In this document: piece after piece, positions 7,633 to 36,040 of the stretch
How the letters are laid out: the number at the start of each line of letters is the position of its first letter
Numbering within the stretch: the first letter of the stretch is position 1
Assembly (NCBI GenBank): GCA_025399215.1
Contig: MU621211.1
Coordinates: 1 to 51,228 of the forward strand
Length of the DNA: 51,228 bases
Direction: 5' to 3'
Source of the DNA: Globomyces pollinis-pini
Lineage: Eukaryota; Chytridiomycota; Chytridiomycetes; Rhizophydiales; Globomycetaceae
Translations under genes and position numbers: made by a program
Notes under the pieces: generated by a model
The model's database searches: none
What the model was told of the DNA's origin: nothing
The model's input: only the letters and a program-made list of their open reading frames with translations

Positions 7633-10600
7633 TTATTCCCAATTATCTAATGCTGGTAATAACAATAGACCATTCTTGATTGCAATTTTCGATTCAAAAT
7701 CTTTTAAATCAATTCCTTCTTCAACATTTTGTAATGGTTTAAATCCATTAAAATCAAGATTTTCAATTTTTTCAATTTCTTGTAGATAAATTTCTTTAAT
7801 TTGTGGATAAGAATAAATAATTTTTAATGTTGCTTCAGATTTGAGTGATGATGGTAATAGATTGTAGAAATTTCTTAATAGTTTTATATCTGGAGTATAG
7901 GAATATAATCGTTCAATGTTCATGACAATATAAAATGCTTCGTTATGTAATCCACACCTTACAAGTGCTTCAACATAAGAGGTGATCATATTCAATGTAA
8001 TTGGAAATTTTTTAATGTTTAGTTCATTCCATACAAGTTGTAATTCAGTTGGTCGGTTTGCAAATCCTAATGCATCCAATATGATACATGCAGTGACAGG
8101 ATCAACTCCAAAGTTTGATCGAATAATTTCGTTTCCCAAGTTTGTGAAGAATAATGCTGCTTGGGAAGTTACAGGTATACTGGCCACATCTCGATCAATG
8201 AATGTTTCAGTATTTTGAAATGGATCTGAAAGTTGGTCAATCCAAAGTCGCTTCCATAACAGATAAGCTTTCTTCCATTGATTACTAAATGCATATCCAG
8301 ACATCAGAGCATTCATTAGTGCCATAGTGGGTTTTAACCCTCCATCTGGTCGTGTAACCTCTCTGTAAAGATTTTCCAGGTCTCTAACTTTTCCCAATCT
8401 TCCATAAAGTACCAACATTGTCCCTGCCAGGTTCAGAGACATTGGTAACTTTGTTTTCTTGAATTCTGTGTATTTCTGTAAAGCTTTTCCATAACTACCT
8501 GCATCAGAATAAGCAGCTATGATAGACCCATAACAAGATGTATCAAGTGCAATATTAGTACTACATAACTGACTCCAATACTTTTCTGCTTGTTGAATTC
8601 CCGAACCAACTTTAACTGCAGATCGAATTATTGTTGAAAACGCTCGAGGATGTGGTGCAAATTGTGTTAAATATTCATTCAAATATGATTCAGCGGTTAT
8701 GAAGTCTCCTTTTCTATGGTATTGAATAAGTAATGATAAAAATACCTTGCATAAAAACCTATAAACTCAGCCAAGACAAACGATCGAGTCTTTGTATTCT
8801 TACATAGCTCTGCACATTCATTTGCCAAGTCTGTATTACCCGATCTTAAATAAACCAATACCAAAGACAAAAACGAATCTGTATGTATTTCTGGATCAAG
8901 CAACCCTTGAATTTTTTTCACTCCTTCCAAGTCATTGAGTAAAGCATATCCACGAATCATATACATTGCTGATTTGTCACAGAATTTCGACACTTTAATA
9001 TCATCCCATATTTCTAAAGCTTTTGCCCATTGATTCTTTACAATCAAATAGTTTAAGAAGTGAGAATAAACTGAATTGGATATATAGCAATTCGCTGATT
9101 TAAGCTCCTCTAACAGTTCCCATGCTTGCTCGTATGTTCCTATTTTTAAATAGCCTTCTATTAAAACTTCAAACGTTTCTTGATTTGGTTTCAAACCCCA
9201 TTTCAACAAGTCAAGATATAATGAACCCACTTCGGACGGCATTTCATTATCAAAGTATGCTTGAAGTAGTAAGTTTACTACATGGGTATCTTTAAATTTT
9301 GCACTATTGAGCCATATCTGCGCTCTGCGAAACTGACGAGCTTTAATAATTTCCTTCATTAATCGTTTTTTACCTGCTCTAGACACATGTACGTTCTGAT
9401 CTTCCAATTCTGTAATAAAATCAATTGCTGGACCAAATTCATTGATCTTGGCATATGATACAACTATTGAATATATCTCCATTTGGTTCAAATCTCGATC
9501 AACTACACCAAAGTCCCAAAACACTGTGACTGCCAAGTCTGGCCTTCGTTTTGAACATAGTTCTGTAATCAAGCTTTTAATTGATGGGTATTTTGGGATA
9601 TAACCACAATCTAGCATATCTCTAGACATATCATAGGCTGCTTCAACTGATTCTGTCCGGCACAATGATTGAAACAACCAATCTACGTGTACATTTTTGT
9701 GGGAATCAGAGTATAGCTCCCTTCTGATATGTAATGGGAAGGAAAAATACATGGTTGACGCAGATACAACATTGTTGTGTTTCTCACAAGCATTCAAAAA
9801 TGGTACAAGTAAATTTGACCCGGCACTAATACCTAAACAATTTAGAAGCAGCATAAAAACCTTTTGACCTGCATAATGCCATAAGTTTTTGAGCAGTACT
9901 TATATCAGCATAACTAACCAAGGCACTAAATGTCTTGATATCAGGATTAATTGAGTGCGATTGCATGAATTGGATGTATAATAAAGCATCCTGATAAGTA
10001 ACAGGGCGTATAATTCTTAAAAAGTCATTGAAAAATCCAATATCAAGTCCATGGCCTTCATTCGCGATAGTTTTAATCATATTCATTACAAATAAACAAG
10101 TCTGGTGTTAATACATTGCACATACCTTTAACCGTACTGCCGAGTATCTATTTGTTTCCAGAGATCTGTTTTCATAAAGTAACAAATTCCCACCTAAAAA
10201 TTAATTGATTTAAATAAACCTTTAGAGCTTAGGATACCAGCCACAGGAAATTCAGCGTTTTCTAAATGATAGGAGATATTTTCAGCAGTTCTTGTCCCTT
10301 TCGATTGATCAATAAGATTATTGAAATTCTTCAGAGTTGACAAAAAGTCACCATAATGAAAGTTTGGTACTTTTCTTAGAATTCCAAACACCGAGTACAA
10401 AACTTCATGATCCATTGTGATATGATTCTTCAAAACTTGATAAATGGTTGGTAAGTCAGGATTATCTGATTTCAACCATTCTTGAGCATCTTGAGCATTA
10501 AAAAATACGACATTCTTGTATGCATCAATGCTTTTCGTATCAACATGCTTAATATCCCCCTTTGAATTCAATAGCATTTTTAGTTTTCCATCTCCATCTG

Positions 10601-11112: not shown

Positions 11113-12750
11113 TCACTGGCTATTGGAAGTCGGTTGAAGTCCACCACTATTACTTGGTGCCGTCTTCAGTACTTCCAACTGGTTAATTTCTGTCGAAGTT
11201 TTACTTTTATGAAAGTCTGTCATTTCAATCTCCACCAAACTGGATTGAAAAGAGGTAGTAGAGCTCTCTGTTGACGCATTTCGTATCAAGAAACTTAACT
11301 GATCGATTAGAAGAACGTTAAATATGGCATGCGCAGTGAGTATAAACATCTGAATACAAACAAATGTATCCCATACGCGATCATTTCCTAATAAATCTGT
11401 ACTGCTTTGGATATGGCTGATTGTGAAGTAAATGACTCCCAGTAGCACCTGTTGAACAATCAATGTCAAGAAGAATTTGTCCTTCGTGTAGATTTTGCCG
11501 ATTGCAAAACTTATACTGTTGTTTAAACCTCTAAAGAAGCTTATTGCAGTGAAGCTGGTAGGTATCACGTTCCAAAGAAACATAATCAATATCCAATATT
11601 GATTATAACCCATCCAAACTGTAATAGTGTCAGAAGATATGCAATGCTCAACGTAAGGGTTCCAGCAGTATCCAAAATAATAAGCTCCAGCAAATCCAAG
11701 GTGTAGAAGAAGCAAAACACCACATATAATCAATTTGAATTGGATAGATGGCGCAGGAAACATAATTGAGAATAGAAATATAGTAGTTTGTAAGACATTC
11801 AGCAATGATGCCAAATTATGGAAGATCCAGGTGATTTCAATCAGGATATATTGAGAGTTGATATCTGGTAATTTCATGTACATATATACAGTGTTAACCA
11901 CATCATGCATGATCCATACAATTGAGGTGAACATGAGTAACTTCATGTATGCTGTCTTAGAATCTCTAACCTTGTGAAAGTAGATAAAGTAAGTGACTCC
12001 TAAATCCCCTGCTAAAGTTAATCCAACGCACAGATGCTGAACCATATCCCAAAAAGAGGTCGAATTTGCGATAGAATCAGTAGAAGGAAGGAACGTTGTC
12101 CACGAGACTGGTACATTGATAGATCCTCCTTGAGCATACATTGCTTCAAAGTTTCCTATTTTATCGCTTTTATAGCTGTTTGGACCATCGTTTTTGCTCA
12201 AGTCGAACTCTTCAGTAGTTCCTTGTTTTGAGATAAAACCCATTTTACCTTTACATTCATCTTCACCATAAACCGTCAAGAGTTTGTTTGAACTACACGT
12301 AAATGTATTTTGAATGCAATCTCCATTATTTAAAATATAAATTCCAAGGTATCCAGAAATCGTTGAATTGCTTGTCAGTATACAATACGCGCCATTATTT
12401 GCAAATCGTTTTATCGGAATATCATTATTATCTACATAAATAATTTCAGATGCTCCACTTTGAACATTATTGGATTTTTCCAAATCTAATGATGATACGC
12501 AGCATCGATTTCGCAAAGGAACTCCAAGTGATCCACATGTTCCTAATGGATTTTCCTCCAAAGTGAATGAATAAAAATGAGGCCATGTTTCATTTGATCC
12601 AGGTATAGGAGAACTAGGATTCATCACGTTAAACATGTACATTGATGATGGTGGACCAAGACAATTGTGATTGTTCAGCCATTCTGATTGTAAAACTGTA
12701 CTAGACATTGCTAAGCCGATGAAACAAATGACTGATATGTTGAATTTCAT
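11113..12750 (-). CDS. 7TM protein with Cys-rich ectodomain (paralogue 1)
   Basis: An intronless frame of 545 codons. There is a signal peptide (residues 1-18, ISVICFIGLAMSS), then an extracellular domain of about 220 residues with paired cysteines (CGSLGVPLRNRCCVSSLDL). Seven hydrophobic helices follow, beginning near residue 236: LCVGLTLAGDLGVTYFIYF; LLMFTSIVWIMHDVVNTVY; LIEITWIFHNLASLLNVL; FKLIICGVLLLLHLGFAGAY; WILIMFLWNVIPTSFTAISF; FFLTLIVQQVLLGVIYFTI; and IQMFILTAHAIFNVLLIDQL. The cytoplasmic tail is Ser/Thr-rich (about 65 residues). The topology is receptor-like, but I see no signature of a classical GPCR family. The clear paralogue is at 34501-36040, with the same ectodomain cysteines, the YYFGYCWNP loop and the same helix order. 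The absence of introns, in a region where almost every gene has many, suggests a retroposed copy or intron loss. Confidence 0.8.
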   Translation of the reverse strand: MKFNISVICFIGLAMSSTVLQSEWLNNHNCLGPPSSMYMFNVMNPSSPIPGSNETWPHFYSFTLEENPLGTCGSLGVPLRNRCCVSSLDLEKSNNVQSGASEIIYVDNNDIPIKRFANNGAYCILTSNSTISGYLGIYILNNGDCIQNTFTCSSNKLLTVYGEDECKGKMGFISKQGTTEEFDLSKNDGPNSYKSDKIGNFEAMYAQGGSINVPVSWTTFLPSTDSIANSTSFWDMVQHLCVGLTLAGDLGVTYFIYFHKVRDSKTAYMKLLMFTSIVWIMHDVVNTVYMYMKLPDINSQYILIEITWIFHNLASLLNVLQTTIFLFSIMFPAPSIQFKLIICGVLLLLHLGFAGAYYFGYCWNPYVEHCISSDTITVWMGYNQYWILIMFLWNVIPTSFTAISFFRGLNNSISFAIGKIYTKDKFFLTLIVQQVLLGVIYFTISHIQSSTDLLGNDRVWDTFVCIQMFILTAHAIFNVLLIDQLSFLIRNASTESSTTSFQSSLVEIEMTDFHKSKTSTEINQLEVLKTAPSNSGGLQPTSNSQ

Positions 12751-12908
12751 TGCTCAACCAATTAATAGGAATTCAAACTAACAGCTTTAGAATATTGAGA
12801 ATCTCCACGTAAATACCAAGACATTACTATGTTTACACATAAAAATCTGATAGATACATACATAGATAGATATAGATATATTATAATTATTATTAATGAA
12901 CTAAACGT

Positions 12909-14250: not shown

Positions 14251-17200
14251 ATGTGTATTCTTATTACTGCTAGATCGGAAATAATGCTGAGAGCGACGCG
14301 CAAAGTCTCTCAAAAAACCATGTTAGCAAGAGAACGAAGAGAGTCATTTGCCAGCATCCTCAGTATCTCCGAACCAATAAATCCAGCAATTCTATCGCAA
14401 ACTGCAAAACGATTTGTTCAATCTGTCACCAAAACAACAGCGACGAAGGATATGCTCGAATATCAAGACTGTTTCTCTGGAAAGCATGGAGTGGTACTAT
14501 TAAAATTCAAATTGACATTTGATAATTAGGATGTTATCAGTGATATTACAGGAATAAGTAATCGGCACATTTGTATAATACTGGGTAAACGAAAAAGAGT
14601 TTAATTTTCAAAGGAAGAGCATTAGACGCACAAGGATTCTTTTACGATGTAACTTGGATGCATCGATTTCGAGACTCTCCAAATGAATTGTACAAATTCG
14701 AAGAGACCAAACCTGATGATACAAATGACAGTCTGTTATCAGGTTAGAATACATTTGGTGATCTAAATATACTAGATAAATTACCCACAGGTGTATTTGT
14801 ACCATTGGCAGCATGTTATTCGGCTACCTGTGTAAAAGGAAGATGTTACTCCCCAACTTGTCCAAAGAAAGCGAATAAACTGAAGGTAAAAACGATAGTT
14901 AACGATTTTCATAGAATGAAAACACAGTAATGATTCCTGACATTCGTTCATCAGCACCAGCACCACCAGAAGTAAAGGTATCGGATTTCAACTTACACAT
15001 AGCCAGCGGCTGCTGATTATTGGTCGTGCACAGTACCACCAGAGGTACTAGCATCTATGACTGCCAAGGAAATTACAAGACAAGAGGTTATCTTTGAGCT
15101 GATAGTCACTGAACAAGAATTTGTCAAAGATCTAGAAAATACCATTAAAGTAAGCAAGCTACCCACTCATACTATAGTTTATCATACATCCACTTAAAGA
15201 ATCCGATATAATTGATATTGAAAAACGGGAAGAATTTGTAAACCAAGTGTTTTCCAACATTGTTGAAATCTACACCTTAAATTCAAAACTTTTAAAGAAA
15301 CTGTTATCGAGACAGAAAGAAGAATTGGTGGTGGATCGAATTGGTGATATATTTGTCAATATATCCAACGAGATTTATCCCTATGTTGAGTATGGAGGAC
15401 AGCAAGCCTTTGCCAAGAGTGTTTTAGATGAGGAGCGACTGACAAATACCGAGCTCGTTAGATTTCTCAAAGTAAAAATATTTTTTTGATAATATGACAG
15501 GAGTGTGAGAAAATACCAGTGTTTAGAAAATTACCAATTGAAAGTTTCTTGGCACGACCTACAACAAGACTGGGACGGTATCCATTGCTTCTAAAACCCG
15601 TAATGGAAAAGGCTGCAGAGAACCATCCAGATCGTATACTCATTCCACAAGCTCTGACAGGGTTCAAAGCGGTCTTGACCAATATTAACATTGAAGCTGG
15701 CAAAGCGGAAAATATTCTCAAATTGGGACGATTAAATAAACAAATATTTGGACCAACAGATCAGACTGCTGTAAATATGGATTATTAAAAGTATAGTGTC
15801 TAAATTTGCTTGAAGAAGGTCGTCAGATAATTCGTGATGGGAAGCTGATGATGCGTAAAAATAATGAAACGGAAGTAATGGTATTTCTGTTTGATCACTT
15901 GCTACTTGTTACCAAACAAAAAGATAATGGATATAAGATCATTCGACATGTATTCTCATCATAACTTACATATTAGCCCATTCCCCTAGAGTTTTTGTCA
16001 ATACATGCAGACACAGCTTCATTAACGACAGCAGATTCAACCAAAACATTTCCAATCACTTTTGTACATCCTGGCAGGTTTGGGGGTACTTTTATCCTTC
16101 ACGCTGGAACGCAATCTGACCGCGATTCATGGGTAGAAGCAATCCAGAAACAAGCTCAGTTAATTACCGATCGAAAGCGTAAATTTGAAATGATATATCT
16201 TGTTGATGAGTATTTCCCAAGGACCAACCCTGTCAATTGTTCGTTAGTATACCTGAACCAGTTATTTATTGGAACGGATGATGGATTATATATTGGAGCA
16301 GAAGATGCTTACGGCGTGCTCCCTCGAATCGAAGTTAATGATGGTGGAATGTCCAACATTATGTCCGCACAGACCGAAAGATTCACCAAAGTCATTGATA
16401 TTGAAAATATCATACAAATTGATGTTATTCCAAAGATTGACATGCTGCTTTTGCTAGCTGGTACATAACCAAATATTTAAAACTTTAGGTAAAACTCTGG
16501 CCGCATATCCACTAAGAAGCTTGCTACAATTAGCAAGCGGAAATGCCCTGGAAGAAAAACTTCGACCAAGAAAGATTGGAGAGCAAGTCAAATTTTTCAA
16601 ACAAGGAGTGTGTAATAATTTGACTGTTGTTTGTACGGTTAAGTCATCATCTACCAGTACATTGGTAAAAATACTAGAGCCAGTGGGATTAGGTGTAAGC
16701 AAACATAATGGAAAAATTGGGAGGTTATTCAAAGCCAAAAACCAATCACTACGACAGGTTAAGGTAATGCTAGTGGTTTAATACCAGGAATTTGATGTAC
16801 CTGGAGAGTCAAGGTCACTTCACTTTTTATCTTCAAATATATGTGTCGCTAGTATGAGAGGATTTGAATTAGTAGAGTTTGAATCTTTGAAAACGCAAGG
16901 TAAATCAAAATTGCTGAATTTAGCATTATTGGATATGAGTGATCCGAATCTAGACATAGTAAAATGACCTATATATTTGATCAGTAGTTAAATCAAAAGC
17001 GAGATCGGGTTTTGAAACCCATTTCAATTTTCAAAGTAAAGAATAACCAATACCTGCTGTGTTATAATGGTATGAACTGACTGGTATTCATGCTAGAGTT
17101 TGGAATATTTATAGATGAAAAAGGACGGCGTATAAAACCTTCTTGGATAGTCTATTGGAACGGAAATCCAGTTCAATTTTGCATGGCATATCCTTACATT

Positions 17201-17556: not shown

Positions 17557-20500
17557 ATGGGCAACCAAGCGCCAACTGATGATGAATGGTCATTGAAGAA
17601 GTCCGATACCGTAGATTCACAACATACAACTCTCAACCATACAAAAAGAACTCATCCAGCCTTCTTGTCATTGGTCGCTGCTCGTTTCAAGAACGATATT
17701 CCTTTGGGAATATCTTCAAAAGATAATCATGAATACTCAGAATCCTTTTTTGGAAAACATGGTGTGGTAAGTCTATTGAATGAGGTTAATTTTAGGTATG
17801 AAATCATTTGACGTTAAATTCAAAGGTATGGATGCCATTAGTCAAACTTATTCTATAGGTATTTACTGTTATTCAATTCATACTCAAAGGATACAATTGC
17901 TAATATTATCCATTCAAACGATAGGAACTTATGCGTTTTATTGGGAAGAGCATTGGCAGAACAAGGAATGTTTCATGATGTGTCCTATGTTCATAAACTA
18001 AGAGATTCATTGAACGAAGTTTATCAATTTGAACCTCATGCTGGTATTATTTTGCAGCATTAATCCAACTATAGGTAAATCGACTAACTAACTCTAGGTA
18101 TTGCTTGATAATTGTTGATTTTCTAGCTACACCATCCGGAATTTTCACCATTCTCTCTGATTGTTATTCCCCAACTTGTGCAAAAGGCAGAGTATGTTAT
18201 TCTATCACTTGTCCAAGGCGGTTCGAGCATATTAATCTCCAGAAACAACCCACTGTATCTGGTTCAGTGATTGAAGATGAGAAAGTAACCTATAAATCTT
18301 TTATTAGTATAGCCAATTGGAGATGATTGGGGAAGTGGAGTTCCAAAAGAACTGTTGGACTCTTTGTCTAAACAAGAAAGGGTTCGACAAGAAACAATCT
18401 ATGAGTTGATCAAAGGAGAAATCGAATACGTCAAAGATTTACAGAATACAATCAAAGTATTTTTAATTTTTAACACTATAGTTAATCGCTCAACCATTAA
18501 GGATCAAGGACATTATTGAGCCGACACGACGTGAGCAGTTTGTAAACGAAGTGTTTTCCAATATCAATGCTATTTGCAGTGTTAACGAAAAACTACTACA
18601 AAAGTTGCTGGTAAGGCAAAGGCAAAGTACCGTAGTGAGCAACGTCGGAGATATTTTTATTGAGATGGCCAAAGAATTTGTTCCATATATCGAATATGGT
18701 ACTAATCAATTTCATGCAAAGATCGTCTTGAATGATGAGCGGAATAGAAATACCGAATTGACCAAATTTATACAGGTAAATTTTATCTCTAAGTATAGGT
18801 ATAATTCGACGACAAGAATAATATTTAAGGTATATGATCTCAAGTGTAATTCTATAATAAGGTAAAGTAAATATACCCTCAACGGTATCAGGAAGTAGAA
18901 AGACTCAAAGATTTCCGAAAATTATCCATTGAATCATTCTTAGGAAGACCTACCTCAAGATTACTGCGTTATTCTTTGCTTTTAGAAGGAATCCTAAAGA
19001 AAACAGAAGAGAATCACGAGGATATTGAAGCAATTAAACTGGCGATGGTAGAACTGAAGAAAATCACTACAGCGGTTGATTTAGCAGCTGGAAAAGCCAA
19101 AAATAAGATTCGTTTGACCGAATTGACAGCAAAATTGTTTTCCTTAGATGGAGATGAAGTATAATTGCTTGCTAATCAATGTAGAAACTATTGAATTTGC
19201 TTGAGGAAGGACGAAGCATTATTCGAGAAGGCAATTTGATTTTGAAAGGAACAGGTACAACAGGTGATAAAGAAGTATTTGTGTATTTGTTTGACCATAT
19301 GCTTGTCATTACAAGAAAGAAGGAAGATAGATATAGAATTTATCGCAAAGTATGTCATAAACATTCTAAAATATGTAGCCTGTGTATCTGGAAATGGCAC
19401 AAATTCAAGTGGAAAGAAACGCATCAAGAGCTGCAGCAGGTCTAGCCAGAGTAGGTACAGTCACAGAAGCCAATCCTGCTACTCAAAGAACTTTCCCACT
19501 CACTATTATTCACCCAGGTAGATTTGGTGGTGCATATGTTTTGAATGCCGCCACAATTGCTGATCGTCAAAGTTGGATTGAGGCGATAGAAAGACAAAAA
19601 GCAACCTTGATATCACAGAAGGAAGTGTTTAAAATTTCTCCCATACTAGATGGAAGTTACTTTACACGATCAAATCCTATCCGATGCTCCTGTGTATATC
19701 AAGGACATATCTTTGTCGGCACTGACAGTGGATTATATATTGGTCGTGATTCTGCAAATATTACATCTGGGAATTTGAGATTCCAATACCAGCGATTTTT
19801 AAAAGTACTCGAGGTCGAATATGTGTCGCAGATAGATATCATTCCTAAAATTGAGATGCTACTTTTACTCCAAGGTAATCAATTTATCTCTAATCTGTCT
19901 AGACAAAACATTATTGCTCTATCCTGTTCGAGTGTTATTGGAGCAATGCGAAAGTTTTTCGGTTGCGAATGATAAAATAAAACCTCAAAAGGTTGGTTCA
20001 TCAGTTACCTTCTTCAAGCAAGGTACTTGTCAAGGCCAGCAACTTTTGTGTGCAGTCAAGAGCACCCCAATTAATACTACTGTAAAAGTGTTCGAACCAA
20101 TCGCTGGTGTCAAATCGAGTGGATTTAAACTCTTCAAGGCTGGAGTTGACAACCTTAAGCTTGTCAAGGTTTTGTTTTTGATGAAATTCATTTTCTTTAG
20201 GAGTTTTATATCCCAAGTGAGTCAAAATCTATCCATTTCTTTTCGTCAAAGTTTTGTGTTGGCTGTGTGAAAGGCTTTGAATTGGTTGATTTTACCACGT
20301 TGGACACACAAGGTATGATACATCATGTGTATTAAAAACTATAGGTTCTAGTTTGATGTTAATATTTAGGATTTTTGGAGCCAAATGATCCAACGTTAGA
20401 TTTCGTTCTTAAACGTGAACAAGTGAGACCCATTGCTATCTTTCGGTTACAAAATGGAAACTTTTTACTTTGTTATAATGGTAATAATAAGAAAACTAAA

Positions 20501-20789: not shown

Positions 20790-21192
20790 GTTACACCCAT
20801 GAATACGTAGTTTATTGTTATCCAAATTGTAAATTAGGTTGAAACAATTGTATGAGCCATAAAGTGTTTAAGAATAAGTGGGATGAGATGAAAGGAAACA
20901 GAAGCTATTTACTGATATATGTTTCATTCCACTATGACTATAACGTGTTTTAGTTTAAATATTTCCTTGCTCACTTTCATCCAAAGTATTAGAAAATCAA
21001 ACCCAGATCCATGATGTAGTTTATTGATTTGGCACGTTGCGGCTTGTGGAATGATTCAAAATCCCAACTTTTCTTTGGGGCGAATTCCCGATCGATCTCT
21101 ACTGAGTTTTGGTAGCGCCCTTCTCATGTCACAAAAGATTTGTTATAAAGCCAAACAAAGCAACGGTATAGTTTATCAAAAAAACAAAAACA
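20790..21192 (+). promoter_or_regulatory. Upstream region of micro-gene 1
   Basis: No gene seen. Contains GGGCGAATTCCCGATC at 21078-21093, nearly identical to GGGAGAATTCCCGATC at 27601-27616 upstream of micro-gene 8, and a TATA box (TATAAAG, 21144-21150) 43 bases before the start codon at 21193. Confidence 0.5.
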
Positions 21193-21417
21193 ATGACTTT
21201 CCTTACCCCAGCTGTTCGTCAATCTGTTCCATTCATGTGTTTCTTTGTAGGATCCGTAGCACTTACAATCAACCTTGCACAATTACAAAAACTTAAACAA
21301 GATATCCAACTTCTCGAAACTAAAAACTCAGAGACATTAAAACAATGTCATGAATTGGAGTTGGAAAAATTGAAGTTGGAAACTAAACTAGAGACTCAAA
21401 AGAAAACTTGGCTATAA
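21193..21417 (+). CDS. Micro-protein, subtype A (member 1), 74 aa
   Basis: Residues 1-28 form a hydrophobic segment (TPAVRQSVPFMCFFVGSVAL), residues 29-68 a Leu/Lys/Glu-rich helix with coiled-coil spacing (LQKLKQDIQLLE, CHELELEKLKLETKL), and the end is KKTWL. The subtype A hallmarks are the VRQS-PF-CF-VGS block, a single Cys in the helix and a C-terminal KK-x-W-hydrophobic. A TATA box (21144-21150) sits 43 bases upstream, favouring this ATG. Function unknown. The shape fits a small membrane-anchored or amphipathic coiled-coil protein that oligomerises, but this is inference. Confidence 0.8.
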   Translation: MTFLTPAVRQSVPFMCFFVGSVALTINLAQLQKLKQDIQLLETKNSETLKQCHELELEKLKLETKLETQKKTWL

Positions 21418-22116
21418 TCCTTTTGTTTGTTACTCCTTATAATATATTTCCGTTTTGTAAACCAGCTCTTTTCTTTATTAGAGGAATAACAGTCGTAAAT
21501 TACTTCAGTAGGGTGAATCATGTAGAGAACAACGTTAGATGTATGCTCACTAATATCGATTCTCACATTTTTATCTTTAAGAATTCATGATATTTAATAT
21601 GGAAGCCTGCTAGTTCATTAAACTGGATCAGTTGCATCGAGAGTACCAACACGAAAAAAGTCAAAAATAGAACCTTGATGGATGATGGAAATACTGTTAC
21701 ACTAATTATGATATTGAATAATATATTACTCTATCATTACATTTGGCTGATAGAATTGTTTAGTAGTTGTGTCCAGCTACACATGTTTTCCAACCCCTGT
21801 AGGGACTGTACCAAAGAGGCAGGTTGGGTAACATTTCACTTCCACTGCTAAATTCAGTTTATAAATCATAAGATAAGATGATTCAAATATCCAGTTCCTT
21901 TACTATCAGGACCCAACCTTACACACAACTCAACGATACGATGCTTCAATGGCTTTAATGGAAGCCTACATGAAGTCATTTGAAATATTCTTGTTTTTTC
22001 GGAGCCAAGTCGACTTGTTTATCAAATACAGAAAAGATCGAATATCTGATACACGTTTCAGTAATGTATTTAAACAACACAGATGTTTGGAAATACTCAA
22101 CAAAATATTTATCCAA
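21418..22116. other. Spacer between micro-genes 1 and 2
   Basis: Non-coding as far as I can see. The frame of member 2 is open upstream to an ATG at 21949, but those 56 codons have no counterpart in the other members and are probably 5' leader. AT-rich with no defined repeat. Confidence 0.4.
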
Positions 22117-22353
22117 ATGATCCCATTAACATTCGCTGCTGTACAAACCGCTGTCCCATTCTTCAATCTGGTGATTGGAACCACTGCCATGTCTTTAAAT
22201 ATCAATGCTGCTCAGAAATTAAAAAATGATTTACAAGAGTTGGAACAACAAAACAAACAAGCTTCAGAACGTTATAAACAACTTGAATCTGAAAAAAACA
22301 AATTGGCTAAACTTGCTGAACCTACTACTGGAAGAATGCTATTTTTCTTTTAA
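22117..22353 (+). CDS. Micro-protein, subtype B (member 2), 78 aa
   Basis: Start placed at ATG 22117 because members 4, 5, 8 and 9 begin at the corresponding residue; an upstream in-frame ATG at 21949 would add 56 unrelated residues. Hydrophobic segment AVPFFNLVIGTTAMSLNI (residues 12-29), helix QKLKNDLQELEQQNKQASER, then QLESEKNKLAKLAEP and the invariant tail RMLFFF. It differs from member 4 at 10 of 237 bases and only one residue (Asn/Ser at 37). The downstream TGTAAATA at 22406-22413 is followed by AAAA, a possible 3'-end/PUF-type site shared with members 4 and 8. Confidence 0.8.
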   Translation: MIPLTFAAVQTAVPFFNLVIGTTAMSLNINAAQKLKNDLQELEQQNKQASERYKQLESEKNKLAKLAEPTTGRMLFFF

Positions 22354-22996
22354 TCTCCATGGATTTAATTGATGGAAATTGTGTGCTGATATGTAAGACC
22401 TCATCTGTAAATAAAAAATATTATCGAATCTATATTCTTTTCGTTCCTATTTAAGTTATTGTACTTTTCAATGATAATGATGTAGGAATATTATACCTAA
22501 ATTTAGATATGTAATTAATTGAAATAGTACGAGATATCATTTAATACCACACAGTTAATCTGCACGCGTCAGAACTGATGAATCAACTATCAAGATTAAG
22601 ATCCAAGAGTGATAAAAACTAATTATTCACCATAGCCATTTTCATCACAACCCTTCGCCAGACCAGAGTGTACAAAGTCAACTATTATAATATACAGTAT
22701 ATGTATATTGTTCAATGCTCAATGCTTACTTTATTAATTTCACCTTATAGAATAACTTTTACGTATCAAGTACTAACAACAGAACGGTTTACCAAAAAAT
22801 ATCTAACATGAACGTGTTTGGCTTTAGCCAGTAAAGCCAATCCGGACGCGGGTACTGTGATATCACTGACAGAATCTATTGCCACCAGAAAAACCAAACC
22901 GATAATATTTGTATGTTTCAAAGACTGACCCACAAAAAATTAGCCTACCCAATATAAAAAAAACAGTACAACCAACCAGAAACGTATAATCTTGAA
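22354..22996 (+). promoter_or_regulatory. Upstream region of micro-gene 3, with a palindrome
   Basis: A perfect inverted repeat, TGGCTTTA and TAAAGCCA around a 5-base spacer, lies at 22819-22839. A related imperfect copy lies at 24314-24333 upstream of member 5. A TATA box (TATAAAAA, 22953-22960) precedes the start by 36 bases. No other gene seen in this stretch. Confidence 0.5.
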
Positions 22997-23224
22997 ATGA
23001 TCATGTCTTTACTTACCCCAACTGTCCGTCAATCTATTCCATTCATGTGTTTCTTTGTAGGATCTGTGGCAATGGGCGTTAATCTTGGACAACTTCAAAA
23101 ACTTAAACATGATATCCGTACAATGGAAATGAAGAATTCTCAAACTAGAAGTATGTGTCATCAACTTGAATTGGAAAAATTAAGGTTGGAAACTGCTTTC
23201 AAAAAACCATCTGCTTGGTTGTAA
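22997..23224 (+). CDS. Micro-protein, subtype A (member 3), 75 aa
   Basis: Same plan as member 1: TPTVRQSIPFMCFFVGSVAM, then LQKLKHDIRTMEMKNSQT and CHQLELEKLRLETAF, ending KKPSAWL. The protein begins MIMSLLTP; ATG 23003 gives MSLLTP, closer to the length of member 1, and may be the real start. The helix is more basic than member 1 and has two Met. No intron. Function unknown. Confidence 0.8.
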   Translation: MIMSLLTPTVRQSIPFMCFFVGSVAMGVNLGQLQKLKHDIRTMEMKNSQTRSMCHQLELEKLRLETAFKKPSAWL

Positions 23225-23791
23225 TTTAATTCATCTATTTACTTTTTTTTGACAAACATAACTTTAAGAACCTCATATTATTATTCTTAGCTGTTTAATA
23301 AAGCAACTTGTAATCTCTGTACTTGAATTTGAATTTTACTGAGTACGCGATTTAAGATAGTTTACACAGAGATTGTTCAATAATATTCCTCAGGTGGAAT
23401 CTAAAGTAACATCGTAACACCATTTGATCCAATCGTTGAACCAGTTTCTTTGAGTGAGATGGTATGCATTAGTTTATCCTTAGAGGAATCATAGAGATAT
23501 GATTGAAACATGAATATGTATAAACTTCAATCATAAATTCAATTACAAACAATATTACAATATACCATTTGATAATAATCAAAGACAACGTTATACGTGT
23601 ACTACACACAAAAATAAAGAATTACATGTGCTTTTAGTTGTGTTGTCGATCCAATTCAATTCGGCTGCTCCCCAAGCTCAAAAGGGACAGATGGGCTTTG
23701 ATGATGCCGTTTTACCGAATTTTTCTCCAAATCAGATCGATTGTTTCAGTTTCACTATAAATGACCGAGAATCATCAAAGGAAAACTAAAA
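23225..23791 (+). promoter_or_regulatory. Upstream region of micro-gene 4
   Basis: No gene seen. A TATAA at 23756-23760 lies 31 bases before the start codon at 23792. Confidence 0.4.
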
Positions 23792-24028
23792 ATGATCCCA
23801 CTAACATTCGCTGCTGTACAAACTGCTGTCCCATTCTTCAATTTGGTGATTGGAACCACTGCCATGTCTTTAAATATCAACGCTGCTCAGAAATTAAAAA
23901 GTGATTTACAAGAATTGGAACAACAAAACAAACAAGCTTCAGAACGTTATAAGCAACTTGAATCTGAAAAAAACAAATTGGCTAAACTTGCTGAACCTAC
24001 TACTGGAAGAATGTTGTTTTTCTTCTAA
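23792..24028 (+). CDS. Micro-protein, subtype B (member 4), 78 aa
   Basis: Nearly the same protein as member 2 (one substitution in 78). Hydrophobic segment AVPFFNLVIGTTAMSLNI, helix QKLKSDLQELEQQNKQASER, tail RMLFFF. Of the ten base differences from member 2, nine are synonymous, so the protein has been kept under strong constraint since duplication. TGTAAATA recurs 3' of the stop at 24054-24061. TATAA at 23756-23760. Confidence 0.85.
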   Translation: MIPLTFAAVQTAVPFFNLVIGTTAMSLNINAAQKLKSDLQELEQQNKQASERYKQLESEKNKLAKLAEPTTGRMLFFF

Positions 24029-24449
24029 TCTACACTACCCAATACATAACTTTTGTAAATAAAAAACTAATCTATTTTAACTCTTTCTTTTAACTTTATA
24101 TCTATAATGCGTAACGCTGTATTTACACCTGTCTTTGGTACTAACCAACATTCTCATGTGTGACAAAAGCTAAGCACATGATGTTCACGTAAAAAGCTTC
24201 TTCAAACCAACACATATCCACGAACATAACAGTCCAACCAAAACGAATGCACACAGATGATCAACAAGAGTTGGCAAGTGGCTATATCCCTCTAGCTTGG
24301 GTCAGACATTGTCTGGCTTTAACAGTACAGCCATAAAAAGGGCGGTTTCGAACGTTTGCTATCAACAACGTTGCAGAGGCTTGGTTAACTAGTGCTTCGT
24401 TTCAGGTTGGACTATATAAAGTGGTAGATGATGACGTTCCAAAACAAAC
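24029..24449 (+). promoter_or_regulatory. Upstream region of micro-gene 5
   Basis: Holds TGGCTTTAACAGTACAGCCA (24314-24333), a looser version of the palindrome upstream of member 3, and a strong TATA box (TATATAAA, 24413-24420) 29 bases before the start. No gene seen. Confidence 0.5.
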
Positions 24450-24746
24450 ATGATTCCATTAACATTCTCCGCCGTTCAAAGTGCAGTACCATTCGTGAAT
24501 CTAGTGATTGGAACAACAGCAATGTCAATCAATATCGCCCAAGCTAAAAAACTAAAGGGTGAAATTCGTCAATTGGAAACTCAAAACAAAGAAGCATCGG
24601 AACGATATAAACAACTTGAATCTGATAAACGAAGACTTTCAACTATTTCCTTGAATGAAAAACGAAGACTTTCAACAATTTCTTTACCAGGATTGTCTAG
24701 ACAAGATGTTACTGAAGAAGACACCAGCATGTTGTTCCTTTTTTGA
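24450..24746 (+). CDS. Micro-protein, subtype B variant (member 5), 98 aa
   Basis: The subtype B core (VPFVNLVIGTTAMSINIAQA; KLKGEIRQLETQNKEASER; YKQLESDK) is followed by a unique insertion. KRRLSTISL occurs twice with an 11-residue period (33 bp, units from 24627 and 24660), and the tail is SMLFLF instead of RMLFFF. Each repeat contains RRLS, which fits the basophilic (PKA-type) phosphorylation consensus R-R-x-S. This is the only member with a plausible regulatory insertion. The TATA box is at 24413-24420. Confidence 0.8.
   Translation: MIPLTFSAVQSAVPFVNLVIGTTAMSINIAQAKKLKGEIRQLETQNKEASERYKQLESDKRRLSTISLNEKRRLSTISLPGLSRQDVTEEDTSMLFLF
24627..24692 (+). repeat. 33-bp in-frame tandem duplication in member 5
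   Basis: Two adjacent units (from 24627 and from 24660) both encode KRRLSTISL. The second unit differs at a few bases and diverges after the ninth codon. Confidence 0.8.
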
Positions 24747-25364
24747 ACTGACAGATATGGTCATGACTACTTTTGATAGTTCTTTTTTCTTGAACTGCAT
24801 CACCCATCCGTTGGATTTATATGTCCACTTACCCTTCCAAATCAATTCGTTGTTTTACAAAGATAATAAAATCGACAATTGCATTTAGAATTCCATACGG
24901 TGTTTGAAATGAGATCAGTTTACGTTAACAAAGATATTTATAAAAGATATTTGATCTTGACAAATGATACTGTCAGTCAAAATAAGGTTAAAAATCAATT
25001 GAAATGGAATTTAAGACGTCAATATTCATGAAGAAAACAAATACAACCAACTTGGACATTCTACACGATTTGAATATCAGTCAAACCATCCATAGATATC
25101 AAACCAATTTTCAAAAACGAATTCATAATTTCATTATTAGAAGTGATTGGAAAAGACTAGGACTGTCACCCATTCTAAAAACCACATGGATTATGGAATA
25201 AGAAGCCGTGTAGATAAGCAGCAAATGAGATCTTCTTTTGCCGTTTGTTTCATTTTGGCTTGTGCAAGAGCCAATGAGACTTTACTTAATGGGCTAAACC
25301 TCAACGCGCATCAACAAATTGAATCTGTTTCAACTACAAATATAAAAAGTACCAAACCCAGTTA
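24747..25364. other. Spacer before the assembly gap
   Basis: Short open frames here (for example 25004-25201) have no recognisable content. A TATA-like TATAAAAA at 25341-25348 lies just before the gap and is placed where the promoter of member 6 would be expected. Confidence 0.4.
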
Positions 25365-25489
25365 NNNNNNNNNNNNNNNNNNNNNNNNNNNNNNNNNNNN
25401 NNNNNNNNNNNNNNNNNNNNNNNNNNNNNNNNNNNNNNNNNNNNNNNNNNNNNNNNNNNNNNNNNNNNNNNNNNNNNNNNNNNNNNNNN
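25365..25489. other. Assembly gap (125 N)
   Basis: Undetermined bases. The gap removes the start of micro-gene 6. By comparison with member 4, 162 coding bases should precede position 25490, plus a leader after the TATA at 25341, so the true gap is probably longer than 125. The near-identical copies at 22117 and 23792 are a natural cause of the assembly failure. Confidence 0.95.
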
Positions 25490-25564
25490 CAACTTGAATC
25501 TGAAAAAAACAAATTGGCTAAACTTGCTGAACCTACTACTGGAAGAATGTTGTTTTTCTTTTAA
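25490..25564 (+). CDS. Micro-protein, subtype B (member 6), 3' part only
   Basis: Resumes right after the gap as QLESEKNKLAKLAEP...RMLFFF and the stop at 25562-25564. The surviving 24 residues are identical to members 2 and 4. The 5' two-thirds lie in the gap. Whether this is a distinct third copy or a collapsed repeat cannot be decided here, although its 3' flank differs from those of members 2 and 4, which supports a separate locus. Confidence 0.8.
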   Translation, partial: QLESEKNKLAKLAEPTTGRMLFFF

Positions 25565-26500
25565 TCTCCTTTGTATGTGAATGTCCTTTCGTAATTATTA
25601 TGTAAATTGTTAATATACTCTTATTATAATCAAACATTTTCATTGGATTTTATCTTGGTAAGATGGTGAACGTTGATGGCACGTTATGCATCCTCATCAA
25701 TCTAAGTACTAAGCATGTTGAGCGTAACATGATAACACGTTGAAACATTTAGTTACTGCGCAAACCTAACCAAGTTGAATGCGGTATTCATTTTAATTTA
25801 GAAACCCATGTTGGGAAAGTGGTTTGAGTACATCATGTCGGAAGATCCTTTGGATAAGTTGTAATTTCCATTCTTTGGTTAATCTTAGTCATGGAATAAG
25901 AATAGTAAATTGAAGCCTTCAAGATATATAGACTAACCAGATTACAAGGATTTCGTCCATAATGTTCTTTCAATGTTGTTTTGATGTAATTTGATGAATT
26001 TCAATCAATGTGATAGATCTTGATAACGCATAATTTTGAATAGATCAACAGAAATTGGAAGAGATCACCAAAGTCGCATGTCCAGTACCCGATACACAAA
26101 TGCAATTAAAAAGTTTAATGAAAGTCTGTGATTTGTTTGATTGTCCGTTTTGATTGAACCGTCGATTATCACAAGTTTGTGTCTTTCTTCTATCTGCTTT
26201 TATGGGTTTTATTCAAACTGATTCGATCTGATTAATTGAATCTGTTTATTGAATTTGAATTCTATTCAGTTTTTATTGGTTTAATTTTTTGTGAGTGAAT
26301 GGAAAGTCCCTAGAAAATCACCAGATTGATAAATTTCCAAGGATTCAATTCTAATAAAGAAAAGAGTATATTTTTCAATAGTTGTATTCAATTAAACCCC
26401 TTTGATTCCTTGATAATTGGTCTCAAAGAGATGTTGAAATTTGTTCCCACAAAAGACAAAAATCTTTGAGTTTAAAATTCAACTACAAAAAAAGTCATCC
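25565..26500. other. Spacer with a possible short exon
   Basis: Mostly AT-rich and unremarkable. 26046-26153 is open and reads like protein (QQKLEEITKVACPVP...VCDLFDCPF), with no start. A short frame at 25809-25865 (MLGKWFEYIMSEDPLDKL) could be a first exon, but I found no micro-intron chain joining them in frame. Confidence 0.25.
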
Positions 26501-26731
26501 ATGGCACTCATCACACCTGCAGTTCGACAATCCATTCCATTTCTTTGTTTTATTGTAGGGTCAGCAGCATTGAGTATCAATTTAGCTCATCTTCAAAAAC
26601 TTAAACATCAAATTCAGGAATTGGAAGTTCAAAATGCTGATACTCTCAAAAAATGTCATGAATTGGAATTGGAAAAATTGAAGTTGGAAGCTAATTTAAC
26701 TGCATCTGGAAAGAAACCCACTTGGTTTTAG
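26501..26731 (+). CDS. Micro-protein, subtype A (member 7), 76 aa
   Basis: Start placed at ATG 26501 (MALITPAVRQSIPF) to match members 1 and 3; the in-frame ATG at 26441 would add 20 unrelated residues. Hydrophobic segment SIPFLCFIVGSAALSINLAH, helix LQKLKHQIQELEVQNADTLK and CHELELEKLKLEANL, end KKPTWF. The Cys in the helix and the KKP-x-W end are conserved with members 1 and 3. No clear TATA box close by. Confidence 0.8.
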   Translation: MALITPAVRQSIPFLCFIVGSAALSINLAHLQKLKHQIQELEVQNADTLKKCHELELEKLKLEANLTASGKKPTWF

Positions 26732-27680
26732 TTGCTACTTTTGATACTCAATATATCACAGCTATGACCTCATGAAATCATTTTGTTTAAAGCTTGTAAT
26801 TTTACATTAATAGTCTGGATTTTCTATGAAAGGATTAACCAATGGATTATTAAAAAAATTAAAGCATCAAATACCAATCCGACAATTTCCCGTACAAACT
26901 TAACCATTTGAATCCATAAGGCAATTAGATTAACTCAGTGTTTACAGATGAGCATGTGCTATTAGGTGTATAAATCATATGCTGGATAATTCATTGACTG
27001 ACATGTGTCTGCGGTGTGTTTTTCCAACTAAGCATACAAAACGCTTTAAAAGCTTATTGTAATATTTCGAGATATGAATGATGTTGCAGTAAAATAAATT
27101 ATGACTGATGTTAAATGAGGTGACCCTGGCTGTCTTTTTCATGTGGTTGGGTTTAGCTGATTGTCAGTTTCCATTATTTGTAAAGACAATACAAACAATG
27201 GATGCGATAACGATGATATTATTTTAAATGCTGATTAGATACGTTAGATTTACTCATCTGGTAAGATTGAATGAATAAGACCGTGACTAACTGAACTAAT
27301 AGAAAATGTACTCCAACTAAGATCGAATCGAAAGATTGAACTTTAAACAAGTGAGTCTAATTTACCACCACTTTGTTTACACAATCAACGCATTGTAATC
27401 TTAGTGAAAGAGCCGTGTGGCGAAAAGTCGTGGTAATTTAACCAACTCCACGATAAGACCCAGTCATCTAAAACACTATAATGAATGCTATTACTCTAGA
27501 TACAAATAAGTTACTATTTTAGTTCTAAATTAGTTTTCTATCTAAAGTGTATGCGTTTTTGTTATCAAAGCTGTGCGGCCAATAGCCACACCATTTAATT
27601 GGGAGAATTCCCGATCTTTTTCAACCGCAAATAAAGTCTTTAAATACAACCGAAAATTGTCTTCCCACTAACTTTATTGG
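26732..27680 (+). promoter_or_regulatory. Spacer and upstream region of micro-gene 8
   Basis: No gene seen. GGGAGAATTCCCGATC at 27601-27616 matches the element upstream of member 1 in 15 of 16 positions and lies 64 bases before the start. A weaker TTTAAATAC lies nearer the start. Confidence 0.5.
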
Positions 27681-27917
27681 ATGGTTCTTTCGTTTTCATC
27701 TTTACAATCAGTGGTTCCTTTCATGAATTTATTCATTGGTACCACTGCCATGTCTCTCAACATTGCTCAAGCTAAAAAGTTAAAGGAAGATTTAAAGAAA
27801 TTGGAACGTAAAAATATGGAAGCTGTTGCTCGTTTTAGACAATTAGAATCTGAAAAGGTTCAATTAGCTGCTTATGCTGAACCTCCTCAAACAAATCGAA
27901 TGTTGTTTTTCTTCTGA
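27681..27917 (+). CDS. Micro-protein, subtype B (member 8), 78 aa
   Basis: More diverged B member: SSLQSVVPFMNLFIGTTAMS, then AKKLKEDLKKLERKNMEAVA, RFRQLESEKVQLAAYAEP and the tail NRMLFFF. The GTTAMS core, the QLESEK word and the C-terminal RMLFFF are the same as in members 2 and 4. TGTAAATA at 27935-27942 lies 17 bases after the stop. No intron. Confidence 0.8.
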   Translation: MVLSFSSLQSVVPFMNLFIGTTAMSLNIAQAKKLKEDLKKLERKNMEAVARFRQLESEKVQLAAYAEPPQTNRMLFFF

Positions 27918-28992
27918 CTGAATGTTTATGGAGATGTAAATAAATTATTTTTATTAAATGTTAGTGTAATACATTCCTTTTCAGTGTTATCCATGTTTTT
28001 GTTTTTAATGAGCAGTTGTGATGTTATTCTATATACTAACTGTCTTGCGTTAGATTCACTTTTAGTCTTACTAACCACCAACATTGATGAATCATGACTC
28101 ATTTTGTTATCAGTAGATTTTGACTTATCAGTTCTTATCAATAAAAGATCAACCACATTCAAATTTTAAACTTTTCTGATGGATAAGAATTGATGAAAGA
28201 GATTGTAAAGAGTTCATTTAATATGGAGTTGAATTGACTGAGTAATGTGTCTGGAGACACAATGAATACGTTTGTTTCCAAGAAACTCACATCTTTAATG
28301 ATCAGAAATGTTTTGTAATCTAAATATATCAACGTTTAAAGGATTAGAGGAACTCATTTAAAATATTTGAAGTGGATCAATTCTGATCAGAAGAATTAAT
28401 CACAATGCAAATCAGAACAATTAATCACAATGCAAAGTTGTACTTTAAACGTGTCTGATATTACCATTACATGAGTATTATAATCTATTTTCACACAATA
28501 AAAAGAAAAAGAGATGGTACAACGGAGCGATAAGCGGTGAATTAATAGAGATTGATTTCTGACAGGGGTGAATTACGATCAAGAGGGACCTGCATGAAAT
28601 ACAACAATCGTTCAGGGGTGGAATACAAATCCCATCAAAACACAAAATAAAGAAAAAAAGAAATCACAGACTTTTTATAGAATCCAAAGAACGGCACATG
28701 ACAATGAAAAACACTTTCATTACAATTTAAAATTCAAATCTTGTAAAATTAAAGAATTTTAAATAATAAAAGAAAAGAGGAGAAAAGACCAGGGTCAAAT
28801 CTATCTTTAATTACCTTTATTTTAGATACCCCCCACTTCATATCATTGAACACAAATCACATGACACGCTGCTGTCTTGCTTTTGATTCGTCAATCTAGC
28901 GAAGACCGCTTCAAAGAGCATCTGTGTCTTGAAACAATGTATATATAAACTACTATTAATGACAAATAGTTTACGCTTTTACGATATTCAAA
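27918..28992. other. Spacer with a 25-bp tandem repeat and upstream region of micro-gene 9
   Basis: No gene recognised. Contains the 25-bp repeat at 28386-28435, and a TATA box (TATATAAA, 28942-28949) 43 bases before the start at 28993. Confidence 0.45.
28386..28435. repeat. 25-bp direct tandem repeat, two units
   Basis: Units 28386-28410 and 28411-28435 differ at one position (G/C). Each contains AATTAATCACAATGCAA. Confidence 0.9.
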
Positions 28993-29229
28993 ATGACCTC
29001 TTTCACCTTCTCATCTCTCCAATCTGTCGTCCCATTTCTTAACTTATTCATTGGAACTACAGCAATGTCAATGAATCTTGTTCAAGCTCAAAAATTAAAA
29101 AAAGACCTCCATAAACTCGAACGTAAACATTTGGAAACTTCGCAACGTTACAAGCAATTGGAATCTGAAAAAATTCAACTTGCTCAGTACTCGGAACCAA
29201 GTACTAACCGAATGCTCTTCTTCTTCTAG
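28993..29229 (+). CDS. Micro-protein, subtype B (member 9), 78 aa
   Basis: SSLQSVVPFLNLFIGTTAMS, then AQKLKKDLHKLERKHLETSQ, RYKQLESEKIQLAQYSEP and the tail NRMLFFF. Closest to member 8, with which it shares the SSLQSVVPF start. TATATAAA 43 bases upstream. It is the last member of the cluster; I found no further copy up to 30438. Confidence 0.8.
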   Translation: MTSFTFSSLQSVVPFLNLFIGTTAMSMNLVQAQKLKKDLHKLERKHLETSQRYKQLESEKIQLAQYSEPSTNRMLFFF

Positions 29230-33976: not shown

Positions 33977-34500
33977 ATTGGCAATGTTTCTACTGTTTGA
34001 TCGGCCTTTTAAGGATACTCTGGGGATTGAATAAGGAAAGTCCCTTCAATTGGGTTTCATCCATATCTGACCTTCGCTTTCCCCTCCCAAGTTTCATCCA
34101 TATTCTAAACTGGGATGCTCTTCCATTTCACACTCTTGGAGTTTTGCCATATTCTTTTTCTTTTCTCCATCATTAATCTGTGATTGGTCCATACGAGTTT
34201 GTCCGGTAGCACCAAAATTTTCTAAATTAAAAGGCGGGTAAATTGATAAAAACTGCCAACGACTTTGACTTGGCAGTTATTGAAGCAAAGTAGCACATGC
34301 GGAACTAAAAACTTATAAGCAACAATTTATGCCTTTGCTTTATTGCAAGATTCTTATAAATCAAAAGACACCTAAACTATTGGATAATCTGGAACGACTA
34401 TAATAACGGTTAAAAGAAAGCTACTACTTTTGTTAAGTAACCAAAATTTGGACTTGATTTTTTTACTTTCAATAGAGGCCAGTTTTTCTACGCGTTTTCT
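33977..34500. other. Divergent intergenic region
   Basis: Lies between hydrolase B (minus) and the 7TM gene (plus), so it should carry both promoters. I see AT-rich sequence but no clear TATA box or repeat. Confidence 0.4.
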
Positions 34501-36040
34501 ATGAGATATATACATCAAGTAATTTTATTCATCAGTCTTTCTCCAATACAAGCATATTCCGTTTTGCAAGTACAATACCAAAACACGTTGGAATGCAACT
34601 CCTCGCCAACAACAATGTATCTATTCGATGTAGATGATTTATTCACAATGGAACAACCTGCAAACGAAAAATGGCCAGAATTTTATACATTTACAGTTGA
34701 AGAGTCGCCTATAGGATATTGTGGTTCATTATCTACAACTTTGGTTTATGACTGTTGTGTATCTACTTTAGATTTAAGTAAATCTTTTGGGATTGCCAGT
34801 GGTTCAGCCGTGGTGGTTCCAGAAAATGATTTTAATTATTCTGTTAATCATTATGCAGCTGGTGGTTCGTATTGTATATTACAACAGAGTGGATCTAATC
34901 TTGTTAATGGTTATCGTGCGGTCTATATACTGAACGACAACAACTGCTATGATCAGTATCAATGCTACACAGATGGTACAGTGCGTGTCTTTGCTGAATC
35001 AAATTGTCAGGGTATCTGTTATGGTATTTAAGTACTGATGTGTAGGGGAGTACCTCAACATATCCTTGTCGAGAGAGCCATTAAGCCTTGTCATTGGTAT
35101 GAATCAGAATATCACAGGACGTTTTTTGAAAGGTAACAAACAGAAAATTCAAATATCTTGGATCACATACATGCCAACATATATGGCCATTCCATCACGA
35201 GACAAGCTCTGGGATAAACTTCAGTTCGTTTGTATCTACACATCAATCTTTGGGGATTTTGTTATATTATTTTATCCTATTTATCTCTACTTCAAACTTC
35301 GAAAGTGTTTTTTGCTTTTGACAACTACAAACTGTTTTGTGTGGTTACTCGTCAATTCTATTTCTGGATATTACGCTTTGGCTGTTTTACCTGATAATAC
35401 TACTCAGTACTATGTCATTGAAGTGATGTTTTTGTTACAAAACATTGCAACACTTTTAACGGTGACTCAAACTACATTGTCAACTTTTAAGGTCATGATG
35501 CCTAGACCTTCAGCAAGTTTCAAGTATTTAACTTGGATCAGCATATTAGTTTTACACTTTGTATTGGCTGGATCGTATTATTTTGGATATTGCTGGAATC
35601 CAGCAGGGAAGCATTTTATTCCATACGAATCTTATTTAACCTGGCTCCGATTTATGCCATTCTGGTATTTGTTTGTGTTTTTGTATGATATCCTTCCACC
35701 TATTCTAATTGTTTGCCAACTAATCCCAATCTACAAGCTTAGTTTCCGTGTCACTTTTTCAATCGATTTGATATTTACTTGGAGTATAATTACGCAAATA
35801 ATCATATGCATATTCTTTTTCACCATCAATTATGTTTCGTCCAATATGGACATTTTGGGTTTGCTTTCTGTCTAACTTTTTAGGGGACGACTTAAGCTTT
35901 GCATCGGTCAAGACATTAAGCTGTACGCTAGTCACTATTCATTCGCAATTGCATATGTTTATTCTATCAAGATTAAGGATCGTATTAAAAAAACTCTCAA
36001 TGATGCAATCAAAAACATTAACCAACAAGTGATCGATTAA
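34501..36040 (+). CDS. 7TM protein with Cys-rich ectodomain (paralogue 2)
   Basis: Three exons, 34501-35011, 35046-35869 and 35897-36040, with introns of 34 and 27 nt, give 492 codons plus stop. Signal peptide (VILFISLSPIQAYS), then an ectodomain that matches paralogue 1 in layout: EKWPEFYTFTVEESPIGYCG, YDCCVSTLDLSKSFG, AAGGSYCIL and VYILNDNNC. The seven-helix region carries the shared loop SYYFGYCWNP, and the last helix is in KLYASHYSFAIAYVYSI. The second intron was placed at GT 35870 because that keeps helix 7 in the frame aligned with paralogue 1. Unlike paralogue 1 (intronless) it has introns. The tail is short and basic. Role unknown; a surface receptor is the natural guess. Confidence 0.75.

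Follow-up and report, generated by a model that had tools for sequence, protein, structure and literature searches.

Four described systems come closest to a cluster of very short genes that we analysed in the chytrid Globomyces pollinis-pini (Rhizophydiales; assembly of 18.5 Mb in 459 contigs). The cluster lies at positions 21193-29229 of contig MU621211.1, inside the window, by which we mean the whole stretch of 51,228 nucleotides (nt) studied here, and comprises eight complete open reading frames (ORFs) of 74-98 codons and the 3' fragment of a ninth, all on the forward strand. The first of the comparable systems is that of p24 and ERGIC-53, which carry the so-called φ-C export signal, defined in PMC5464768 as a C-terminal hydrophobic residue pair or a terminal valine. 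Like those proteins, the cluster proteins end in a hydrophobic pair and would have a single span and a cytosolic C-terminus; unlike them, they have no lumenal domain (10-12 residues stand in its place), continue into a longer helix after the span and give no p24 profile match. With the Tom20/Tom70-type mitochondrial anchors they would share a moderately hydrophobic N-terminal span and a basic C-terminal flank, but they lack the soluble receptor domain, end in aromatic residues and have no such family among their profile matches. The bacterial FtsL, FtsB and DivIC proteins, whose coil is periplasmic, resemble them in plan, with a short N-terminus, one span and a coiled coil, and give weak profile matches; these fall below the DivIC cut-off, however, and the cluster genes are fungal. 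Finally, parallel coiled coils of the GCN4 type share the heptads with Leu in the core and an Asn at one core position (N47, in seven of eight members), whereas the cluster proteins are membrane-anchored in plan and have no DNA-binding part, and the match to PDB (E = 0.057) is not evidence of homology. The family itself is new, its architectural theme already known.

Our leading reading, offered tentatively and with rather less than an even chance of being right as a whole, is that the cluster encodes an abundant single-pass, signal-anchored coiled-coil micro-scaffold, in which proteins of two classes, A and B, are partners and the C-terminal tail is a docking signal or a signal for export from the endoplasmic reticulum (ER). 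In each protein about 10-12 residues would precede a single, moderately hydrophobic membrane helix (PF..F.G..A...N) that passes unbroken into roughly 35 residues of parallel coiled coil, most probably on the cytosolic side; after a variable linker the chain would close with a constant hydrophobic end (W-L/F in A; in B, LFFF or LFLF). Dimers, held together by the membrane helix and the coil and with A and B specialised as each other's partners, would line a membrane surface or keep it spaced. The C-terminal pair may serve as a docking signal, most simply the φ-C COPII export signal of p24 and ERGIC-53.

The cluster ORFs are genes under purifying selection

Aligned with one another, the eight intact members have a mean column identity of 51% and 13 invariant columns. 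The proportion of nonsynonymous differences (pN) was below that of synonymous differences (pS) in all 28 member pairs. The corresponding rate ratio, dN/dS, could be computed for 23 of them and ranged from 0.03 to 0.70, with the highest values in A-versus-B pairs; in many pairs the synonymous sites are almost saturated, which leaves the exact value there with little meaning. All 23 ratios were below 1, so the ratio near 1 that a preceding sequence-only reading of this DNA had named, together with an absence of transcripts, as grounds for giving up its proposal was not seen. B genes 1 and 2 differ by nine synonymous changes and one replacement. The C-terminal motif RMLFFF is present in five of the six B copies, with SMLFLF in the sixth (B gene 3), and the tail codons of the five RMLFFF copies differ synonymously only, while the stop codons vary (TAA, TGA and TAG). 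No internal stop occurs in any of the nine places. The cluster ORFs are real genes, and they are maintained by purifying selection.

The gene order is A B A B B (B) A B B, the parentheses marking the partial copy. A gene 1 (21193-21417, + strand like all that follow) encodes 74 amino acids (aa) ending in KKTWL, and an identical protein (P0004) is encoded on a 1914-nt contig. A gene 2 (22997-23224) encodes 75 aa ending in KKPSAWL, and A gene 3 (26501-26731) 76 aa ending in KKPTWF. Four of the B genes encode 78 aa: B gene 1 (22117-22353, C-terminal RMLFFF), B gene 2 (23792-24028), whose coding sequence (CDS) is nearly identical to that of B gene 1, and B genes 5 (27681-27917) and 6 (28993-29229), both ending in RMLFFF. 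For B gene 1 we set the start at the ATG at 22117, where conservation between the paralogs begins, and passed over an in-frame ATG at 21949. B gene 3 (24450-24746; 98 aa, C-terminal SMLFLF) is longer by about 20 residues, which stand between coil and tail and contain two copies of KRRLSTISL. The two copies form a tandem pair at 24627-24686 with a spacing of 33 nt; the RRLS within them we take to resemble a PKA site.

The ninth gene, B gene 4, is of the B type and is visible only as its last 24 codons and stop (25490-25564; QLESEKNKLAKLAEPTTGRMLFFF), its 5' part being hidden by an assembly gap of 125 N (25365-25489). Judged from the other B genes about 162 nt of its CDS are missing, more than the run of N, and the length of the gap is therefore nominal. 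The sequence-only reading had counted nine co-oriented genes of 74-98 codons here; its coordinates were right, with the ninth reduced to this fragment.

A predicted single helix, a common heptad register and a conserved tail

AlphaFold2 predicted a single helix for both proteins modelled, at residues 6-73 of A gene 1 (mean predicted local distance difference test score, pLDDT, 85.8) and at residues 5-67 of B gene 6 (mean pLDDT 74.0, with the last residues below 50). The moderately hydrophobic stretch occupies alignment columns 13-33, with the pattern PF..F.G..A...N. Beyond it, the same coiled-coil register was the best one in all eight members. Six of the 13 invariant columns fall in a single heptad phase out of the seven examined (P = 0.0022 for this one phase), and they comprise the invariant P, G and N of the hydrophobic stretch together with three invariant Leu of the coil. 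Asn occupies a core position (N47) in seven members and His in the remaining one; at column 54, another core position, there is Cys in all three A proteins and Tyr or Phe in the five B proteins. The members have the consistent heptad register and hydrophobic core expected of a parallel two-stranded coiled coil. Charge scores at the e and g positions were poorest for A genes 1 and 2 paired with themselves and with each other (-4, -5 and -6), and better for either of them with any B (-2 to -3). The hydrophobic segment followed by a heptad-like helix, as first described from the sequence, accordingly holds as a single predicted helix with a common register, its hydrophobicity being only borderline.

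All nine proteins end in a hydrophobic residue pair: WL, WL and WF in the three A proteins, FF in five of the B proteins and LF in that of B gene 3. What had been described as a separate fixed hydrophobic end for each subtype is indeed conserved, and is better cast as one C-terminal hydrophobic pair common to A and B. B gene 3 retains the tail despite the insertion of about 20 residues before it, just as a linear motif at the C-terminus should. The pair is what a φ-C cargo would carry on the cytosolic side of the membrane, a placement for which the charges around the stretch give a mixed picture. The one p24 C-terminus that could be read in this genome ends in ..FFEKRRII.

Public annotation treats this tail differently. 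In the NCBI model of B gene 5 (BC833DRAFT_621326; P0007) the conserved tail is missing, and in that of B gene 6 (BC833DRAFT_621327; P0006) it is replaced, the latter model implying a 29-nt intron (GT...TAG) across the tail; EF1A in this genome has an intron of the same length. We considered the B tail as an intron and rejected it, since no AG is present there in B genes 1, 2 and 4, whose stop is TAA, the stops differ between copies, and the tail codons of the five RMLFFF copies change only synonymously. The implied intron might conceivably be used in B gene 6 alone.

Expression signals

To assess codon usage, EF1A, H2A and H4 from the same assembly (643 codons) were taken as reference. Codon adaptation of the eight genes combined (604 codons) was 0.513, compared to 0.333 expected from background usage (z = 11.9), and ranged from 0.430 to 0.602 for the single genes (z from 1.9 to 6.0); thirteen background frames gave 0.322-0.429 (z from -2.4 to 2.8). 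We also searched the 150 nt upstream of each start for a strict TATA box (TATA[A/T]A), a pattern that occurs in a 100-nt stretch of the local background with a frequency of 0.15. It was found at -36 to -53 in five of the eight complete genes (binomial P = 0.003): at 21144-21149 (-49) for A gene 1, 22953-22958 (-44) for A gene 2, 23756-23761 (-36) for B gene 2, 24413-24420 (-37) for B gene 3 and 28940-28949 (-53 to -49) for B gene 6, all on the + strand. A probable box at 25341-25346 (+), 18 nt upstream of the gap, would belong to B gene 4 and be the sixth if genuine, whereas the other three complete genes have no strict TATA within their 150 nt. The earlier claim that the genes carry TATA boxes therefore stands for only part of them. 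Taken together, the codon bias and the five TATA boxes suggest that the family is probably strongly expressed.

The absence of introns, which had been set against a window dominated by multi-exon genes, is unremarkable. The ORFs are uninterrupted, but frames of up to 777 uninterrupted codons occur in the same window, so that the lack of an intron in a CDS of 240 nt is expected and the contrast carries little weight. Elsewhere we observed an intron of 32 nt in a PPR gene (8641-8830, minus strand) and one of 29 nt in EF1A (L035:1489-1517), the removal of which restores the frame; judging from these two, the genome may favour mini-introns.

Family relationships and distribution

In the tree the A and B proteins lie on opposite sides of one branch with a support of 100/100, the order inside each class being mostly unresolved. 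The two subtypes proposed from the sequence are therefore two diverged classes, which, on this alignment, belong to a single homologous family, and the nine homologous copies at one locus bear out their tandem amplification. Identity is 96% between B genes 1 and 2 but 72% between A genes 1 and 2, and recent copying of a whole A-B unit was rejected on that account. In the part of B gene 4 that can be seen (75 nt), 2 and 1 positions differ from B genes 1 and 2, respectively. The flanks are largely dissimilar, with matches at 24 of 60 positions upstream between B genes 1 and 2, and at 11, 16 and 26 of 60 in the downstream comparisons. As the near-identity is confined to the CDS, gene conversion between old copies fits as the process that would have homogenised B genes 1 and 2, and B gene 4 with them.

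A search of the whole 18.5-Mb assembly with four cluster members as queries gave no confident copy outside the nine places of the cluster, and one of the four queries alone recovered the fragment of the ninth gene. The search also returned one weak extra match at C74:37190-37330 (E = 0.11), in which 47 coil residues align with 36% identity. In protein searches every named relative was from Globomyces; Globomyces sp. JEL0801 has a relative of the A gene 2 protein (P0005), with differences at 2 of 75 residues. These searches rely on shared exact words, and one B query missed P0001, a B paralog found otherwise. Since relatives of moderate identity in other chytrids could escape such a search, restriction of the family to the genus Globomyces is a provisional conclusion; the sequence-only reading had called the system possibly lineage-specific.

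The family matched nothing recognised, as the sequence-only reading had said, and the confident match to a known family that would have told against its proposal was not found. None of the eight members gave a Pfam match at the curated cut-off; the best match to DivIC (PF04977) scored 19.7 bits (E = 0.00074) against a cut-off of 28.9. The p24 family EMP24_GP25L (PF01105) was not among the Pfam families listed for any member at E up to 10, in listings whose filters discard most matches above about E 0.1. The NCBIfam and PHROG scans gave weak matches only (best E 0.00038 and 0.0016), the former being to FtsL (TIGR02209), matched weakly in three of the eight members and judged by E-value only. 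No PDB sequence was significant, the best having E = 0.057, and the top profile matches were mostly GCN4 zippers. Such weak matches are to be expected from any generic coil or hydrophobic helix. No relative was confirmed among 600 pattern matches in viral contigs, and a viral origin was rejected. Titles and opening lines of abstracts on Globomyces, on lineage-specific small proteins of chytrids, on zoospore structures and on chytrid transcriptomes mention no such family.

Weighing the readings

Several observations weigh against the micro-scaffold reading. The hydrophobic stretch is borderline, with best 19-residue Kyte-Doolittle means of 1.50-1.83 in the eight members; in B genes 1, 2, 3 and 5 the 19-residue maximum begins at residue 1-2, off the PF..N stretch; and crude membrane-insertion sums are positive in all eight. 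Such a borderline stretch with positive sums makes binding at the membrane interface possible. The 15 residues following the stretch contain 2-7 basic and 2-3 acidic residues, with a net charge of 0 in three members and +1 to +4 in five. Before the stretch there is no charge in B and one Arg in A, and because of this Arg the charge rule decides nothing on the topology of A. The structure models are of monomers, built from eight paralogs. A heptad Fourier test on averaged columns gave only a modest signal, 329 of 10000 shuffles scoring as high. B-B pairs are neutral in charge and A gene 3 scores equally with itself and with B, so that the charges do not require A to pair with B. In B the conserved tail spans about five residues, longer than a signal of two residues would require. 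In the codon analysis three of the eight genes (z = 1.9, 2.8 and 2.8) do not exceed the top background frame (2.8), and the 300-nt upstream stretches share no common promoter element above the window background. Last, much the same set of features would suit a signal anchor of the mitochondrial outer membrane.

Even so, for some B members the charges favour placing the C-terminus in the cytosol, and the family is probably membrane-associated. For the membrane concerned, we lean towards the ER/Golgi over the mitochondrial outer membrane. In the latter case the moderately hydrophobic stretch and its basic C-terminal flank would direct the proteins to mitochondria, as outer-membrane signal anchors whose coil faces the cytosol as an adaptor or tether and whose C-terminal pair binds a partner, an alternative that we consider unlikely while giving it real weight. 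To our knowledge, no role has been ascribed to an aromatic C-terminus in such anchors. A review (PMC4010795) gives mitochondrial signal-anchored proteins a Wimley-White (WW) hydrophobicity below 0.4 and usually at least three basic residues in a short C-terminal flank; the passages do not name the WW scale, and we assumed octanol values. The best 19-residue WW windows on the stretch were 0.16-0.37 in all eight members, as such an anchor would have, although two members exceed 0.4 (0.45 and 0.48) if the window may begin at the N-terminus. At least three Lys or Arg follow the stretch within 15 residues in seven of eight members, but three basic residues within 10 in only four, with acidic residues interspersed.

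The hydrophobic part could instead be a cleaved signal peptide and the product a secreted helical peptide of 40-50 residues, which we hold to be decidedly unlikely. The stretch is N-terminal, and AQA follows it in B genes 3 and 5; the A type, however, has Leu in place of that Ala. Conservation speaks in both directions, since the stretch does not stand clearly above the coil among A paralogs (68% and 66%) or between A and B (39% and 44%), whereas among B paralogs it does, at 78% against 58% with the near-copy B gene 2 left out, a contrast that holds in B only. A cleaved signal peptide would not usually hold invariant P, F, G, A and N as this stretch does, and the heptad phase crosses the boundary between stretch and coil. 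The proposal of an abundant structural or secreted/membrane micro-protein is thus best retained in part: probably abundant, probably membrane-associated, and with secretion less favoured in view of the contrast in B.

An improbable third possibility is a spacer between two membranes, with the N-terminal helix in one and the aromatic tail dipping into a facing one about 5 nm away (35 helical residues), which would hold stacked cisternae or organelle contacts together. The predicted rod-like helix with a fixed hydrophobic tail at its distal end suits this arrangement, but the tail has only about 2-5 hydrophobic residues and the distance is not kept, given the roughly 20 additional residues between coil and tail of B gene 3. 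Very improbable, finally, are selfish or conflict genes (spore-killer or toxin-antitoxin-like) maintained as a tandem array, for which tandem amplification, apparent lineage restriction and homogenised copies could be cited, but against which stand purifying selection, nine places free of internal stops and raised codon bias.

Neighbouring genes

Two similar-looking multi-span membrane proteins are encoded at 11113-12753 (-) and 34441-35875 (+), with WP.FY.FT.EE.P.G.CGSL common to both by eye. Neither gave a Pfam match at E 0.001, and they are possibly a chytrid receptor family. Upstream of the cluster, two similar exons with PH_5/CNH matches (15977-16465 and 19379-19969) likely represent Rho-GEF-type genes arranged as a tandem pair. 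Scans of the window gave neither a tRNA nor a match to Rfam.

Implications

Returning to the micro-scaffold, its most specific form would be a chytrid-specific, abundantly expressed A+B assembly that arose in or near Globomyces and was multiplied in tandem. Its heptad would run unbroken from the bilayer into the cytosol, and it would form or space a membrane structure peculiar to the lineage, in zoospores for instance; we regard this full version as unlikely. What the locus looks like is a young, probably abundant membrane protein family, with two diverged classes and nine copies at one locus, and a compact case of orphan microproteins turning into abundant cell components. It is hidden by public annotation, in that the tail is lost from the two NCBI models of B members (P0006 and P0007). 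If A and B do co-assemble, they would constitute a new minimal membrane scaffold.

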